A stretch of 38,011 nucleotides of DNA, taken from contig JAUIJD010000043.1 of assembly GCA_030431475.1 (NCBI GenBank), positions 1 to 38,011 on the forward strand, written 5' to 3'. A program made the position numbers and the translations under genes. This DNA comes from Verrucomicrobiia bacterium. GTDB taxonomy: Bacteria > Verrucomicrobiota > Verrucomicrobiia > Verrucomicrobiales > Akkermansiaceae. Positions 11,684-36,592 of the stretch are shown piece after piece. The notes below the pieces were generated by a model. It did not search any database and was not told the DNA's origin. It was given only the letters and a program-made list of their open reading frames with translations. Position 1 is the stretch's first letter. Every line of letters starts with the position of its first letter.

Positions 11684-11750
11684 GGAGCATCGACATTCCT
11701 GTCGATCTTCAAGGCACGGGGATGTTGATCGACAGGAATGTCGATGCTCC
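11684..11750. repeat. Head-to-head palindromic pair at the leuS 3' end
   Basis: Two 23-nt arms (11684-11706 and 11728-11750) are exact reverse complements around a 21-nt spacer. Each arm starts GGAGC and contains its own hairpin, ATCGACA TTCC TGTCGAT (7-bp stem, 4-nt loop). With a small bulge the pairing extends outward to about 11675 and 11758, so it overlaps the leuS stop codon at 11755-11757. Read on the leuS strand it could act as a terminator or RNA-end stabiliser. A further copy of the arm lies at 32968-32990. Confidence 0.9.
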
Positions 11751-11754
11751 CGAA

Positions 11755-14379
11755 TCAGTTCGCCACGATGTTTACGAGGCGGCCGGGGACGACGATGACC
11801 TTGCGGACCGTCTTGCCGGCGGTGTGCTCCTGAACCTTCTCCGCGGCCTGGGCGGCGGCCTCGATGTCCTCCTTCGGGGCGTCCTTGGCGATGGTGATCT
11901 TGTCGCGGAGCTTGCCGTTCACCTGGACGACCATCTCGATCTCGGACTCGATCAGCGCCGACTCGTCGTGGGCCGGCCACGCCTGGGTGGCGAGCTGGGT
12001 GTCGTGACCGATAAGGCGGTTGAGCTCCTCGGTGAGGTGCGGGGCGAAGGGATTCAGCACCTGCAGCAGCAGGGTGAACTCCGCCTTGGGTACGACCTCG
12101 GCGGCGGTGAAGGCGTTGGTGCAGACCATCATCTGCGAGATCGCGGTGTTGAAGGACATGCGCTCGATGTCCTCGGTGACCTTTTTCACGGTCTCGTGGA
12201 CGACCTTGAGCAGGGCCTTGTCGGTGCAGGGGACGTCCTGGACCTTGCTCGACACCTCCCACTCGCCGGCCTGGTCCTGCTCCATGGCCACGCGCCAGAC
12301 GCGGGCGAGGAAGCGCGACACACCCTCGACCCCCTTCATCTGCCACGGCTTGGTGTCGGTCAGCGGGCCCATGAACATCTCGTACAGCCGCAGCGCGTCG
12401 GCGCCGTAGTCGCGGACGATGTCGTCGGGGTTGACGACGTTGCCGAAGGACTTGGACATCTTGCGTCCGTCCTCGCCGAGGATGAGGCCCTGGTTGACGA
12501 GGCGTTGGAACGGCTCCCGGGTCGACAGGTGGCCGAGGTCGTGGAGGACCTTGTGCCAGAAGCGGGCGTAGAGCAGGTGCAGCACGGCATGCTCGGTGCC
12601 GCCGACGTAGAGGTCGATCATGCCGGTGGCCGGGCCATCCTGGCCCGTCGCCGAAGCATCGTGGTTGGCGACGGGGCTGGAAGCCCCGGCCACGTTTCCG
12701 GACCAGTAACTCTCGGCTTCTTTGGAGATGAAGCGGTCGGAATTACGGGGGTCGCAGTAGCGCAGGTAGTACCAGCACGAGCCGGCCCACTGGGGCATGG
12801 TGTTGGTCTCGCGCTCCCACTGGTCGCTGTAGTGGATCCAGTCGGTCGCCTTGAGCAGCGGGCCGCGCGGGTCGCCGGTCGGCTTGAAGTCCTCCATTTC
12901 CGGCTGGAGCAGCGGCAGTTCGTTCTCGGGGATGGCGGCGTGCTCGCCGGTTTCGGAGTTCCAGATCAGCGGGAAGGGCTCGCCCCAGTAGCGCTGACGG
13001 CTGAACAGCCAGTCGCGCAGCTTGTACTGGATCTTGCGGACGCCTTTGCCTTCCGACTCCAGCCAATCGATCATCTTCGCCTTGGCCTCGGTGGTGGGGA
13101 GGCCGTCGAGGAAGCCGGAGTTCACGGCGGTGCCGGGGTCGGTGTAGCCCTGCCAGTCGGCGTCGCCGCTGGGCTGGACGACCTGCAGGACCGGCAGTTC
13201 GAACTTCTTCGCGAACTCAAAGTCGCGTTCGTCGTGCGCCGGGACGGCCATGATGGCGCCGGTGCCGTAGCCCATCATGACGTAGTCGGCGATCCAGACG
13301 GGGATCTTCTCGTTGTTGACCGGGTTGATCGCGTAGGCGCCGGTGAAGACGCCGGTCTTGTCTTTGTTCAGGTCGCCGCGCTCCATGTCGGACTTGCTGG
13401 CGCAGGCCTGCTGGTAGGCCTTGACCGCCTCGGTCTGGTCAGGCGTGGTGATCTGCTCGACCAGCGGGTGCTCGGGGGCGAGGACCATGTAGGTGGCCCC
13501 GAAGAGCGTGTCCGGACGGGTGGTGAAGACCGTCACCGAAGCGGGTTGCAAACCCGCTCTCCCTATTTCGAAGTGGACCTCCGCCCCCTCGCTGCGGCCG
13601 ATCCAGTTCTTCTGCAGCAGCTTGATGCCCTCGGGCCAGTCGAGCGGGTCGAGTTCGTCGATCAGGCGCTGGGCGTACTTGGTGATGCGCAGCATCCACT
13701 GGCGCAGCGGACGGCGTTCGACGGTCTCGCCCTTGGCGCGCCATTCCTCGACCTCCTCGTTGGCCAGCACGGTGCCCATCGAGGGCGACCAGTTGACCGG
13801 CGCCTCGTGGATGTAGGCGAGGCGGACCTCGTCGATCTGCTCGCGGGTCCAGCCTTTGGCTTCGAGCTCGCTGACGGGCCTGGCCTTCTGGGCCTCCTCG
13901 TCGAAGTAGGAATGATAGAGCTGGAGGAAGATCCACTGGGTCCAGCGGACGTATTCCGGATCGGTGGTGGCGATCTCGCGGTCCCAGTCGTAGCCGAAGC
14001 CGAGCGACTTCAGCTGGCGGCGGAAGTTCTCGATGTTGGCCTCGGTGGTGACGCGCGGGTGCTGGCCGGTCTTGATGGCGTACTGCTCGGCGGGCAGGCC
14101 GAAGGAGTCCCAGCCCATCGGGTGGAGGACGTTGAAACCCTGGCGCGCCTTGGTGCGGCCGATGATGTCGGTGGCGGTGTAACCCTCGGGGTGGCCGACG
14201 TGGAGGCCGGCGCCGGAGGGGTAGGGAAACATGTCGAGGACGTAGAACTTCGGCTTGGAGGCATCGAAGTCGGCGTCGCCGGGATTCGGCGTGCGGAAGG
14301 TCTTCTCCTCATCCCAGACCTGCTGCCAGCGGGGCTCGAAATCGGGGAAGGGAAAGGGTTTGCGGCGGTCGTCACTCAT
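11755..14379 (-). CDS. leuS: Leucyl-tRNA synthetase
   Basis: An 874-residue class I aminoacyl-tRNA synthetase that charges tRNA-Leu in the cytoplasm. Marks: HIGH-type motif H60-V-G-H63 in [31 protein letters not shown]; the CP1 editing domain with [15 protein letters not shown] (283-297) and [13 protein letters not shown] (378-390); [34 protein letters not shown]; and K640-M-S-K-S644. GGAGG precedes the ATG closely. Between VNQGLIL and KMSKS there is almost no sequence, so the leucine-specific insertion seen in the E. coli enzyme is missing. Two palindromic repeats are translated in frame: about residues 273-280 (GRAGLQPA) and 563-585 (inside [20 protein letters not shown] and following). All catalytic motifs are intact, so the gene is probably functional. 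Confidence 0.97.
12626..12693. repeat. leuS: Palindromic repeat translated inside leuS
   Basis: Arms 12626-12652 and 12667-12693 (27 nt each, 14-nt loop) are inverted repeats matching at 23 of 27 positions. Each arm holds a smaller hairpin: GGGCCA TCC TGGCCC in one, GGGGCT TCC AGCCCC in the other. The four mismatches fall as two compensatory pairs that keep both small stems intact. The element encodes about residues 563-585 of LeuRS, between YWSGN and GMIDLYVGG, where other LeuRS proteins run directly from YW-x-P to VDLYVGG. It therefore reads as an in-frame insertion. Confidence 0.85.
13540..13562 (-). repeat. leuS: Single GGAG-hairpin repeat translated inside leuS
   Basis: On the leuS strand the arm reads GGAG (13562-13559) followed by a hairpin, AGCGGGTT TGC AACCCGCT (8-bp stem, 3-nt loop, 13558-13540). 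It encodes the GRAGLQPA segment at the edge of the CP1 editing domain, where related enzymes have a short variable turn before [10 protein letters not shown]. The foot and hairpin match the extragenic repeats elsewhere in the window. Confidence 0.75.
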
Positions 14380-35268: not shown

Positions 35269-36567
35269 ATGGAGATCGACCCGTCCGCCCAGAAAGTCCG
35301 CAGCGCTGTTTTCCTCGTCCGTGCCGATCCCATCATCTGTGGTCATTCGACCGAGGCGCGGAATCTGGCCGAGGCGGCGGTGGCGATGGGGCTCGAGGAC
35401 GTCCGGATCGTTTCCTACCCGCTGGAGACGCTGCAGAACAGCTCCCTGCCGCTGAAGCCGATCGAAACCGTGAGCCCGTACTCCGAGGGGATCACGGTCG
35501 ACCGCCCCGAGCCGCTCGGCGACTACAAGGTGCTGGACGGTCGCCTGACGCTCGGGATCGGGGGGCACCTGGTCGACCTCCTGCATCGCTTGCCGGGACG
35601 CACCTTGCTGATGGATCTTTATCTCGTGCCGCACGGCATGATGGTCCGCCAGGCGGTGAACAGCTTCCAGAACTGCGGGCTGGGATCGTCGGTCTTCACG
35701 GTCGGTGAAGCGGTCGGGTCGGACATCACCAACGTCGTCAACAACGCGCTCGCCGAAGGCCGCCTGGGGGCGGCGCAGATGGTGCTTTCGAACTTCCTCG
35801 AGCACGATCATCCCGTGGCGGTGAGCCAGTTCACCAAGGATCTCATTCTCGAGGCCGGCCGCCGGGTGGATGCCAAGCTCGGCACCCGCTTCACCGGCCA
35901 GCTCGAGCGGCGGGTCGGGATCAGCTTTCCGGCGATCGATACCGACGCCTACCTCCAGCTCGACCAGCAGCCCGAACTCGTCGACCGGGTGCTCGAGTCC
36001 CGGGGGCTCGAGCGTGACGGCTACGTGATGTTCCTCTCACGCATCGCGCCGGCGAAGGGCGTGGATGATCTCATCGAGGCGTGGCGGACCTGCTCGCTGC
36101 GCGGCAGGAAGCAGCTGATCATCTGCGGCAACGGACCGGCCAAGGAGGAGGTGCAGAAGCTGGCCGCCGAGTTCGGCGACATCCGGGTGCTCGACGACGT
36201 CAGCGACTCCGAGAAGGGCGCCCTCATGAATGGCTGCTTCGCCTGGTGCCTGCCGAGCAAGCCCCGTCCGGAGTTCGTCGAGACCTTCGGCATTGCCGTT
36301 GCCGAGAAGATGCTGGCCGGCGGTCTGGGGCCGGTCATCACCACCAACACCGGGGGGATTCCCGAAGCCAGCGGCGGGCACTGCCTGGTGCACGAAGCGG
36401 GCAACGTCGACGCCCTGCGCGGGTGCCTCGACCGGGTCGGCAGCATGACGCTTTCCCAGCGTCGCCATCTCGCGACCGAGGCGCGGACCTTCGCCATGCG
36501 TTTCGACCGGCTCAACATCCTCGCCAAGCTTCTCGAGGCGGCCGGCGAATCGATGCGCGCGGCCTGA
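35269..36567 (+). CDS. GT4-type (GT-B fold) glycosyltransferase
   Basis: A 432-residue retaining GT-B enzyme. The C-terminal nucleotide-sugar domain has GYVMFLSRIAPAKGVDDLIE, KQLIICGNGPAKEEV, and the E-x7-E motif E338-TFGIAVA-E346 followed by GPVITTNTGGIPEASGG. The N-terminal acceptor domain starts RSAVFLVRADPIICGHSTEA, with IGGHLVDLLHRLPGRTLLMD and the conserved-looking LVPHGMM. No signal peptide or membrane segment. Donor and acceptor are unknown; a mannose or glucose transfer would suit the adjacent alpha-mannosidase but is unproven. There is no ribosome site before the ATG. A candidate sigma-54 promoter and palindrome lie upstream, and a palindromic arm begins 5 bases after the stop. Confidence 0.9.
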   Translation: MEIDPSAQKVRSAVFLVRADPIICGHSTEARNLAEAAVAMGLEDVRIVSYPLETLQNSSLPLKPIETVSPYSEGITVDRPEPLGDYKVLDGRLTLGIGGHLVDLLHRLPGRTLLMDLYLVPHGMMVRQAVNSFQNCGLGSSVFTVGEAVGSDITNVVNNALAEGRLGAAQMVLSNFLEHDHPVAVSQFTKDLILEAGRRVDAKLGTRFTGQLERRVGISFPAIDTDAYLQLDQQPELVDRVLESRGLERDGYVMFLSRIAPAKGVDDLIEAWRTCSLRGRKQLIICGNGPAKEEVQKLAAEFGDIRVLDDVSDSEKGALMNGCFAWCLPSKPRPEFVETFGIAVAEKMLAGGLGPVITTNTGGIPEASGGHCLVHEAGNVDALRGCLDRVGSMTLSQRRHLATEARTFAMRFDRLNILAKLLEAAGESMRAA

Positions 36568-36572
36568 CGGTG

Positions 36573-36592
36573 GGAGCGCCCGGCGTCGGGCG
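36573..36592 (+). repeat. GGAG-hairpin arm after the glycosyltransferase gene
   Basis: GGAGC is followed by a hairpin (CGCCCG GCGT CGGGCG overlapping the foot, 6-bp stem, 4-nt loop), 5 bases after the stop at 36567. No mirror arm is evident. It may also serve as a terminator. The remaining 36593-36699 sequence shows no feature. Confidence 0.6.

Follow-up and report, generated by a model that had tools for sequence, protein, structure and literature searches.

Short palindromes that share a foot and a hairpin design are dispersed over a 38,011-nucleotide stretch of DNA from a Verrucomicrobiia bacterium of the Akkermansiaceae (contig JAUIJD010000043.1, contig C86 of a 4.73-Mb assembly in 109 contigs), and they raise the question of what such elements are and which enzyme serves them. 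The whole of this stretch, at its full length, is called the window here. A sequence-only reading had likened the palindromes to repetitive extragenic palindromic (REP) sequences and bacterial interspersed mosaic elements (BIMEs), and had connected them with REP-associated tyrosine transposases (RAYTs). The palindromes are very probably REP/BIME arms of at least four coexisting families whose RAYTs lie elsewhere in the genome, and RAYT cassettes found inside genes are, at the same high level of confidence, tolerated, functional, and exchanged at a fixed site. In the source genome and its relatives, complete RAYT genes with their REP arms lie in frame, and free of stop codons, inside housekeeping enzymes.

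REP families of the window and their transposases

The stems of the window recur throughout the source genome. Counted by stem pattern, with no foot required and the reversed pattern as control, family A (ATCGACA) has 33 matches, family B/C (GCCGRTT) 56, family D (GCGGSTT) 34, and family E (CGGGGCT) 18, against 0, 0, 2, and 0 for the respective controls, and each of the four families is therefore present in many copies, as REPs are. Within the window, hairpins with a stem of at least 7 bp and a loop of 3–4 nt number 18, and eight of these are footed, that is, have GGAG no more than 2 nt from the stem; 20 second-order Markov shuffles of the window gave a mean of 10.1 hairpins and 0.3 footed ones, and never more than one footed. 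Families A, B/C, and D account for seven of the eight. The remaining one, at 15857–15874 (GCGGGGG-CAAG-CCCCCGC), has an all-G/C stem, lies outside all four families, and may be due to chance. A 400-kb sample of the same genome contains 12 GGAG-footed hairpins (three in one shuffle of that sample), and the window is thus locally rich in them.

The design of these elements is that of a short palindrome with a conserved tetranucleotide foot, which is GGAG, GGAA (in two arms), or GTGG. Three pairs of arms face each other in inverted orientation, with complementarity of 96% (11680–11707 and 11727–11754), 96% (22146–22172 and 22186–22212), and 92% (30220–30244 and 30322–30346), in agreement with the earlier description of facing arms as exact or nearly so; its GGAG or GGAA foot likewise stands, with GGAA at 14553 and 30324. 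That description had listed eight loci with a stem of about 7 bp and a 4-nt loop. Those at 11684/11728, 13540, 14553, 22146/22190, 30220/30324, and 32968 were retained, whereas 25050 was dropped for its 5-bp stem and 36573 for a 6-bp all-G/C stem that has no copy in the 400-kb sample. At 13540, the stem is 8 bp long and the loop 3 nt rather than 4. One facing pair, at 12626–12693 with GTGG feet, had been overlooked. Several stem classes do coexist in one genome, but their geometry is not entirely uniform, as the loop is 3 or 4 nt and the foot GGAG or GTGG. Nor do the stems differ wholly between loci: GCCGGTT and GCCGATT form one family, with mixed pairs elsewhere in the genome (C17:5831/5937 and C34:9668/9767).

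None of the 22 places that match the Y1_Tnp model in the source genome (20 of them above the cut-off) is in the window, as the sequence-only reading had stated, and the link to RAYTs that it proposed is supported by these places. Arms were sought as hairpins with a stem of at least 7 bp around 20 of the 22, L021 and L022 being left out. RAYT L019 is flanked by family A arms, L006 by family C arms arranged as two facing pairs, L010 and L013 by related arms of the D type, and L017, which lies inside a gene for a TPR/DUF5107 protein, by family E arms. Other RAYTs have arms of their own, for example GTAG CCCAGGGC at L003, TTAG or TCAG CCGGTGGC at L002, L015, L018, and L020, GGAG TGGCGCTC at L007, and GGAG AAGGGATT at L012. 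At L008, L009, and L014, no matching arms were seen among nearby hairpins of this stem length. L006 scores above the cut-offs of both the REP-associated tyrosine transposase model and the Y1_Tnp model. Class B is read as a variant of C, whose arms it faces elsewhere. One genome thus contains many RAYT–arm pairs, four of which cover the families of the window, and four stem families are tied to particular transposases within that genome. Overall, the elements of the window are of a known kind, REPs, in unusually many families and mostly with a GGAG foot.

Genes also accommodate REP arms within their reading frame, as seen in leuS of the window, where the D element begins at amino acid 276 and the E pair at amino acid 563, making three arms in total. 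The nearest relative by leuS, G017 (89% identical), has family E and the single C arm and is missing the B pair and the D insert, so that the elements do vary between close relatives; no family A hairpin was found in the syntenic contig of G017. Copy number, excess of footed stems over shuffles, and variation between relatives, the three checks named with the sequence-only reading, thus all failed to refute it. The D insert is not seen in any of the 16 other leuS sequences of the same genus that were compared. Eleven of these have no insert, those of G017, G016, G011, and G012 have other short inserts at the site, and that of G014 has a different REP-coded insert. The leuS gene of G014 carries REP-coded inserts at three sites, and one of these contains a whole RAYT flanked by two arms.

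Table 1. Positions of leuS and of the REP arms in the window (stems written as arm-loop-arm).
Feature	Positions	Strand	Description
leuS (leucyl-tRNA synthetase)	11755..14379	-	Pfam PF13603, PF00133, PF08264; hosts the in-frame REPs D and E
REP family A	11684..11706	+	foot GGAG, C, ATCGACA-TTCC-TGTCGAT; same arms at RAYT L019
REP family A, arm facing 11684..11706	11728..11750	-	
REP family E	12626..12647	+	foot GTGG, C, CGGGCCA-TCC-TGGCCCG; in frame in leuS; also in G017
REP family E, facing arm	12672..12693	-	foot GTGG, C, CGGGGCT-TCC-AGCCCCG; in frame in leuS
REP family D	13540..13562	-	foot GGAG, AGCGGGTT-TGC-AACCCGCT; in frame in leuS from amino acid 276 (GLQPAS)
REP family C, single	14553..14575	-	foot GGAA, C, GCCGATT-ATGA-AATCGGC; GGAG foot in G017
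REP family B/C	22146..22168	+	foot GGAG, C, GCCGGTT-GTGA-AACCGGC; absent in G017
REP family B/C, arm facing 22146..22168	22190..22212	-	absent in G017
REP family C	30220..30242	+	foot GGAG, C, GCCGATT-ATGA-AATCGGC; like arms on both sides of RAYT L006
REP family C, arm facing 30220..30242	30324..30346	-	foot GGAA, one stem mismatch
REP family A, single	32968..32990	-	foot GGAG, T, ATCGACA-TTCC-TGTCGAT

Several further observations concern leuS and the RAYT loci. The leuS genes of G006 and G011 (L034 and L036) have another in-frame insert, SNQKSTINNQQSSIG-like, at amino acid 563 in the numbering of the window's leuS, the site of the family E pair, and those of G003 and G025 (L055 and L056) share, at amino acid 636 in the same numbering, a 64-amino-acid insert that looks unrelated to REPs. 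In G026 (L057), leuS is followed within a few hundred bases by a free-standing RAYT, in an open frame from 3542. In the source genome, L009 and L014 encode longer Y1_Tnp proteins of about 350 amino acids and have no hairpin with a stem of at least 7 bp close by. The element with CCGGTGGC arms is multicopy, with an intact-looking RAYT at L002, one with a stop at L015, and partial ones at L020–L022; the proteins of L021 and L022 resemble those of L002, L015, L018, and L020. Short translated tandem repeats (for example, SSQPST and SNSNNP) occur in frames beside RAYTs L167, L200, L001, and L013, at both in-gene and free-standing loci. In addition, ARAGORN calls a tRNA-Ser with anticodon ACT at 23922–24014 of the window, where Rfam gives nothing at its gathering threshold; this anticodon on tRNA-Ser is unusual among bacteria.

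RAYT cassettes inside housekeeping genes

Within the genus, represented by 18 genomes including the source genome (G000), a profile of six RAYTs found 56 sequences in 15 genomes. Eight of them are in-frame RAYTs with host sequence on both sides, called nests here: three in ispG (G000, G017, and G002), three in the TPR/DUF5107 gene (G000, G017, and G001), one in leuS (G014), and one in alaS (G004). The ispG site contains a nest in 3 of the 18 genomes, is uninterrupted in 13, and is fragmentary in 2; the corresponding figures for the TPR/DUF5107 gene are 3 with a nest, 6 uninterrupted, and 9 in which the gene was not found at E 1e-20. The empty ispG site was read at 11 of the 12 loci asked for (G001 was missed by the pattern, and G011 was left out). 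The interrupted ispG is the single copy in G000, and G002, which also has the ispG nest, is assembled as a single 5.7-Mb contig. In a genus tree of 54 of the 56 sequences and one outside sequence, the six RAYTs of ispG and the TPR gene form one clade without a free-standing member (support 100/98), and the leuS RAYT falls outside it, as does a ninth RAYT, fused C-terminally in a 653-amino-acid CinA frame of G017, which was not counted as a nest. A 914-amino-acid open frame at G001:C132 was dropped because its N-terminal part looked spurious by eye. The leuS nest of G014 and the alaS nest of G004 have GGAG feet, by eye.

Nests occur in many species. One scan of 84,980 species, with one genome each and the six ispG and TPR RAYTs as query, yielded 349 relatives, and the best 80 of them were retained. 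BLAST with masked frames identified one and the same host gene left and right of the RAYT in 51 of these 80 (25 in ispG, 14 in metH, 4 in the TPR gene, 3 each in leuS and valS, and 2 in alaS). Four further nests have Pfam host domains on both sides, namely a DinG-like helicase (L196), carB (L236), an Eco57I-type enzyme (L232), and an FAD/FMN oxidoreductase (L179), which brings the total to 55. For L208, L190, and L226, the BLAST reference was the locus itself, and there Pfam host domains flank the RAYTs. Excluded from the 55 are four loci with one host side only, at a contig end (L159, L171, L175, and L228), and four long frames without a host match on both sides (L187, L223, L231, and L235); the remaining 17 of the 80 are free-standing or unclassified. 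Frames with two RAYTs occur at L157, L189, and L203, and the RAYT frame is split in two pieces at L198 and L204. The type-strain records L165 and L208 are both nests. Across the order, 181 of the 189 genomes sampled match ispG and at least four have a nest (G000, G115, G002, and G164), and the ispG nest is therefore uncommon and patchy.

Two observations made during this survey stand apart. In G076, a genome with three matches, an 874-amino-acid open frame runs over ispG (C287:14831–15748) and could be a further nest, one that contains another RAYT. The metH nest L215 has a Zeta_toxin-like Pfam match at amino acids 596–673, separate from the RAYT.

The nested proteins are recognisable RAYTs. 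L164 and L165 score 81.3 and 80.8 bits with the REP-associated tyrosine transposase model NF047646 (cut-off 80), and a profile of six nested RAYTs matches TnpArep of PDB 4er8 with an E value of 1.2e-07. The HUH motif is present in every nest examined, all ispG nests among them, and the Y..NP motif, whose tyrosine we take to be the catalytic one, in 19 of 20 ispG nests, L167 being the one unmatched. For the RAYT, two of the ispG pairs give ratios of nonsynonymous to synonymous substitution rates (dN/dS) of 0.26 and 0.28 (a third pair is saturated), and the TPR pairs give 0.14, 0.23, and 0.25, compared with 0.16–0.24 and 0.20–0.41, respectively, for the hosts; the RAYT ratios are rough because RAYT dS is near saturation. 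Nested RAYTs retain the HUH motif and evolve under purifying selection.

The ends of the cassettes are equally well defined. Arms of the ispG nests follow the pattern GT[A/G]G, an 8-bp stem, and a 3-nt loop. In 26 ispG nests, 42 outer arms were read, 20 of them distinct, and 18 nests have both arms read, as an inverted REP pair. The left and right stems are identical in 12 of these 18 nests, as against 42 of 306 cross-species comparisons, and the longest inverted match between a left and a right end has a mean length of 21.2 nt when both come from one nest and of 10.5 nt between nests. All 160 stem cells of the 20 distinct arms are paired, 30 of them changed on both sides, whereas slid controls are 30–56% paired; the covariation score of 0.549 was equalled in none of 500 shuffles, and two of five measures of covariation lie within the shuffle range. 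The ispG arms thus keep their pairing while their sequence changes. Arms with GTGG or GTAG feet are found at many, but not all, nests in leuS, valS, alaS, metH, the TPR gene, carB, and others. When arm stems are sorted by RAYT clade, the 12 sequences of one clade have CTGC (one arm of L165 with T), and the other clade has CTGG, with 13 of its 17 sequences readable. RAYT lineage and arm class change together.

Host and cassette histories and rival explanations

In a tree of 133 RAYTs, 29 ispG sequences lie on one side of a branch (support 98 in the Shimodaira–Hasegawa-like approximate likelihood ratio test, SH-aLRT) and 5 TPR sequences on one side of another branch (97), and the RAYTs as a whole group by host, with 19 host changes versus 65.3 after shuffling; metH requires 2 changes and leuS 3. 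Within the ispG site, the histories of host and cassette differ. For 20 ispG nests, host and RAYT trees have 1 of 17 splits in common, and 16 pairs of strongly supported splits conflict. In 4 of the 190 pairs of nests, RAYT identity exceeds that of either host half by at least 3 points, as in L178/L182 (RAYT 96.8%, host halves 87.5 and 86.1%) and L180/L182 (95.5% versus 87.5 and 86.4%). Conversely, three pairs, all involving L166, have hosts above 90% and RAYTs of 53–54%; in L166/L178, with hosts of 97.9% and 96.4% and a RAYT of 53.0%, the two sequences cease to match at most about 30 nt away from the outer arms. Furthermore, no single tree accounts for the ispG and TPR nest patterns of the genus without a loss or a regain. 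These are signs that cassettes have been exchanged between species at the fixed ispG site.

Four other accounts have to be set against this. That the hairpins are intrinsic terminators, or chance inverted repeats of a G+C-rich genome, can hardly be true. Several of them do lie in gaps between open frames or at frame ends, the places to look for terminators, and one of the eight footed hairpins, at 15857, may be a chance one, but the stems recur 18–56 times against 0–2 for the reversed controls, the feet (8 against 0.3), the facing pairs, and the three arms inside leuS speak otherwise, and copy number together with the RAYT flanks rules this out as a full account. Removal of the insert after transcription or translation, by IStron-like RNA splicing or as an intein, would explain how essential enzymes tolerate it, but is very improbable. 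The insert has no interruption in the host frame over its full length, and RNA splicing would not require this. No Rfam match was obtained at the gathering threshold in the window and 11 nest loci, a threshold that is strict, given that the tRNA called by ARAGORN was missed. Likewise, no intein domain is among the Pfam matches of 25 proteins scanned, in which the matches beyond host domains and Y1_Tnp are Zeta_toxin (L215) and a weak NanE (L164). An AlphaFold model of modest quality (mean predicted local distance difference test, pLDDT, 68.6; predicted template modelling score, pTM, 0.53) places the RAYT region between two linkers with pLDDT below 50, and Foldseek with this model put IspG chains at the top, the 50 matches listed including no RAYT. 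Potential internal starts between host and RAYT core are present as ATG in 6 of 21 ispG nests and as GTG or TTG in all 21.

The remaining two accounts concern movement. Purely vertical descent from one old insertion per host gene, with the tree conflict an error caused by fast RAYT evolution, agrees with the grouping by host, with a mean RAYT protein distance 3.65 times that of the host, and with the weakly positive Mantel correlation of host and RAYT distances (r 0.20, reached in 62 of 2000 permutations). It is nevertheless improbable in view of the 16 strongly supported conflicts, of the loss or regain that the genus patterns need, and of DNA contrasts that depend on no tree, namely RAYTs of 96.8% in hosts of 86–87.5% and of 53.0% in hosts of 96–98%. 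Homologous recombination through the conserved ispG flanks, with no part played by the RAYT, is a more serious contender, though still an unlikely one. Conserved flanks would support such recombination, and neither excision nor copying by the RAYT was observed; on the other hand, the flanks of L166 and L178 are near-identical up to about 30 nt from the outer arms, RAYT lineage and arm class change together, and the catalytic motifs are kept.

The reading of the window as REP arms served by RAYTs elsewhere, and of the nests as functional, exchanged cassettes, has its own weak points, and the following weigh against it. Transposition itself was not observed, and the window has no RAYT. L019, the RAYT with family A arms, falls short of the cut-off with the REP-associated tyrosine transposase model (54.9 versus 80 bits) and with Y1_Tnp (22.2 versus 23, or 23.5 when frame neighbours are included), and for class B there is no dedicated RAYT. 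In 8 of the 26 ispG nests at least one of the two arms was left unread, the search pattern fixed 3 of the 8 arm pairs, and two measures are close to expectation: pairs changed on both sides (4 versus 3.4 after shuffling, 240 of 500 as high) and further pair types (10 versus 8.7, 130 of 500 as high). RAYT dS is 1.4–2.7 times host dS. The survey query consisted of nested RAYTs and the patterns include the HUH neighbourhood, so that neither the share of nests nor that of intact motifs is an unbiased frequency. On the RAYT tree, leuS, alaS, RM, and the second ispG site each require at least two changes, and the Mantel correlation given above also belongs here. Finally, L166, L178, and L182 are metagenome-derived records of similar accession style, and an assembly switch may lie behind the cassette contrasts, above all in L166/L178 with its near-identical flanks; L180 and L182 come from different record series, and a switch is therefore less likely there.

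Known systems and implications

REPs with a GTAG foot, the canonical one (PMC3733652; PMC8266576), are similar in several respects. In the accessible text of Di Nocera et al. (2013; PMC3733652), they have stems mostly of 6–9 bp, form several families per genome with repeat-specific REPtrons, occur in Verrucomicrobia (Opitutus terrae, with GTGG variants), and are found inside genes, those of tRNA synthetases included. The elements described here share with them the foot-and-stem type, the multiple families, the REPtrons, the occurrence in Verrucomicrobia, and the intragenic REPs. However, the feet here are mostly GGAG, with GTGG or GTAG in family E and the ispG cassettes, and whole RAYT genes lie in frame inside hosts. 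The RAYTs of Nunvar et al. (2010; PMC2817692), in the portion of that paper available, are free-standing genes, unlike those here; its searched text has no GGAG foot and no Verrucomicrobia, and its abstract gives more than 100 copies per genome, more than the 18–56 per family found here.

The partial text of PMC8266576 describes TnpAREP/REP pairs of E. coli, S. maltophilia, and Marinomonas and their co-evolution with cognate REPs, a feature shared with the present system, as is the combination of foot and palindrome. The S. maltophilia REP, 23 nt long with a perfect palindrome of 8 bp and a loop of 3 nt, has the same geometry as the 23-nt arms of the ispG cassettes, but TnpAREP is free-standing there, whereas here arms and RAYT belong to the open frame of IspG or another enzyme. 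As far as the text available for PMC8049555 goes, RAYTs are single-copy and vertically inherited, insertion into a gene is taken as its destruction, and RAYT function is called unknown. The RAYT/REPIN system of that paper resembles the present one in combining a RAYT with replicating palindromic sequences; unlike it, the RAYTs here lie inside genes, and cassette and host histories conflict. Rickettsia palindromic elements, as excerpted from PMC3733652 and PMC10969869, are inserted in frame in protein genes, are about 150 bp long, and encode a short conserved peptide; in-frame insertion is common to both, but the insert here encodes a whole RAYT.

The literature searched, which was thin on subscription papers, contained intragenic REPs and the Rickettsia elements and no case of a complete RAYT embedded in frame in another gene, and the in-gene RAYT cassettes are thus a variant without a counterpart found in print. 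Inteins and homing elements occupy a fixed site in a conserved gene, are patchily present, and are horizontally exchanged. The cassettes resemble them in fixed site, patchiness, and exchange, and differ in that no splicing domain was found and the insert apparently stays in the protein.

By analogy with known REP/RAYT pairs, a RAYT would recognise the foot and hairpin on single-stranded DNA, nick beside the hairpin, and so spread arms and facing pairs. The element would persist as a tolerated insert, or extra domain, in a protein that the cell cannot lose, and would spread by cassette transfer at a fixed site, much as inteins and homing elements do but with no splicing. It is possible, and is proposed here only tentatively, that RAYT cassettes are an intein-like class of mobile element without splicing, in which an HUH transposase and two REP ends form a translated extra domain of indispensable enzymes, the host shields the cassette from frameshifts and stops, and the cassette homes to the same position in other species with co-evolving ends.

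RAYTs inside the housekeeping enzymes of many species, with signs of exchange, contrast with the model of vertically inherited, single-copy RAYTs set out in the text available for PMC8049555. In addition, matched empty and filled ispG genes, together with cassettes in which RAYT and arms have changed jointly, provide a natural system that makes the function of RAYTs testable.

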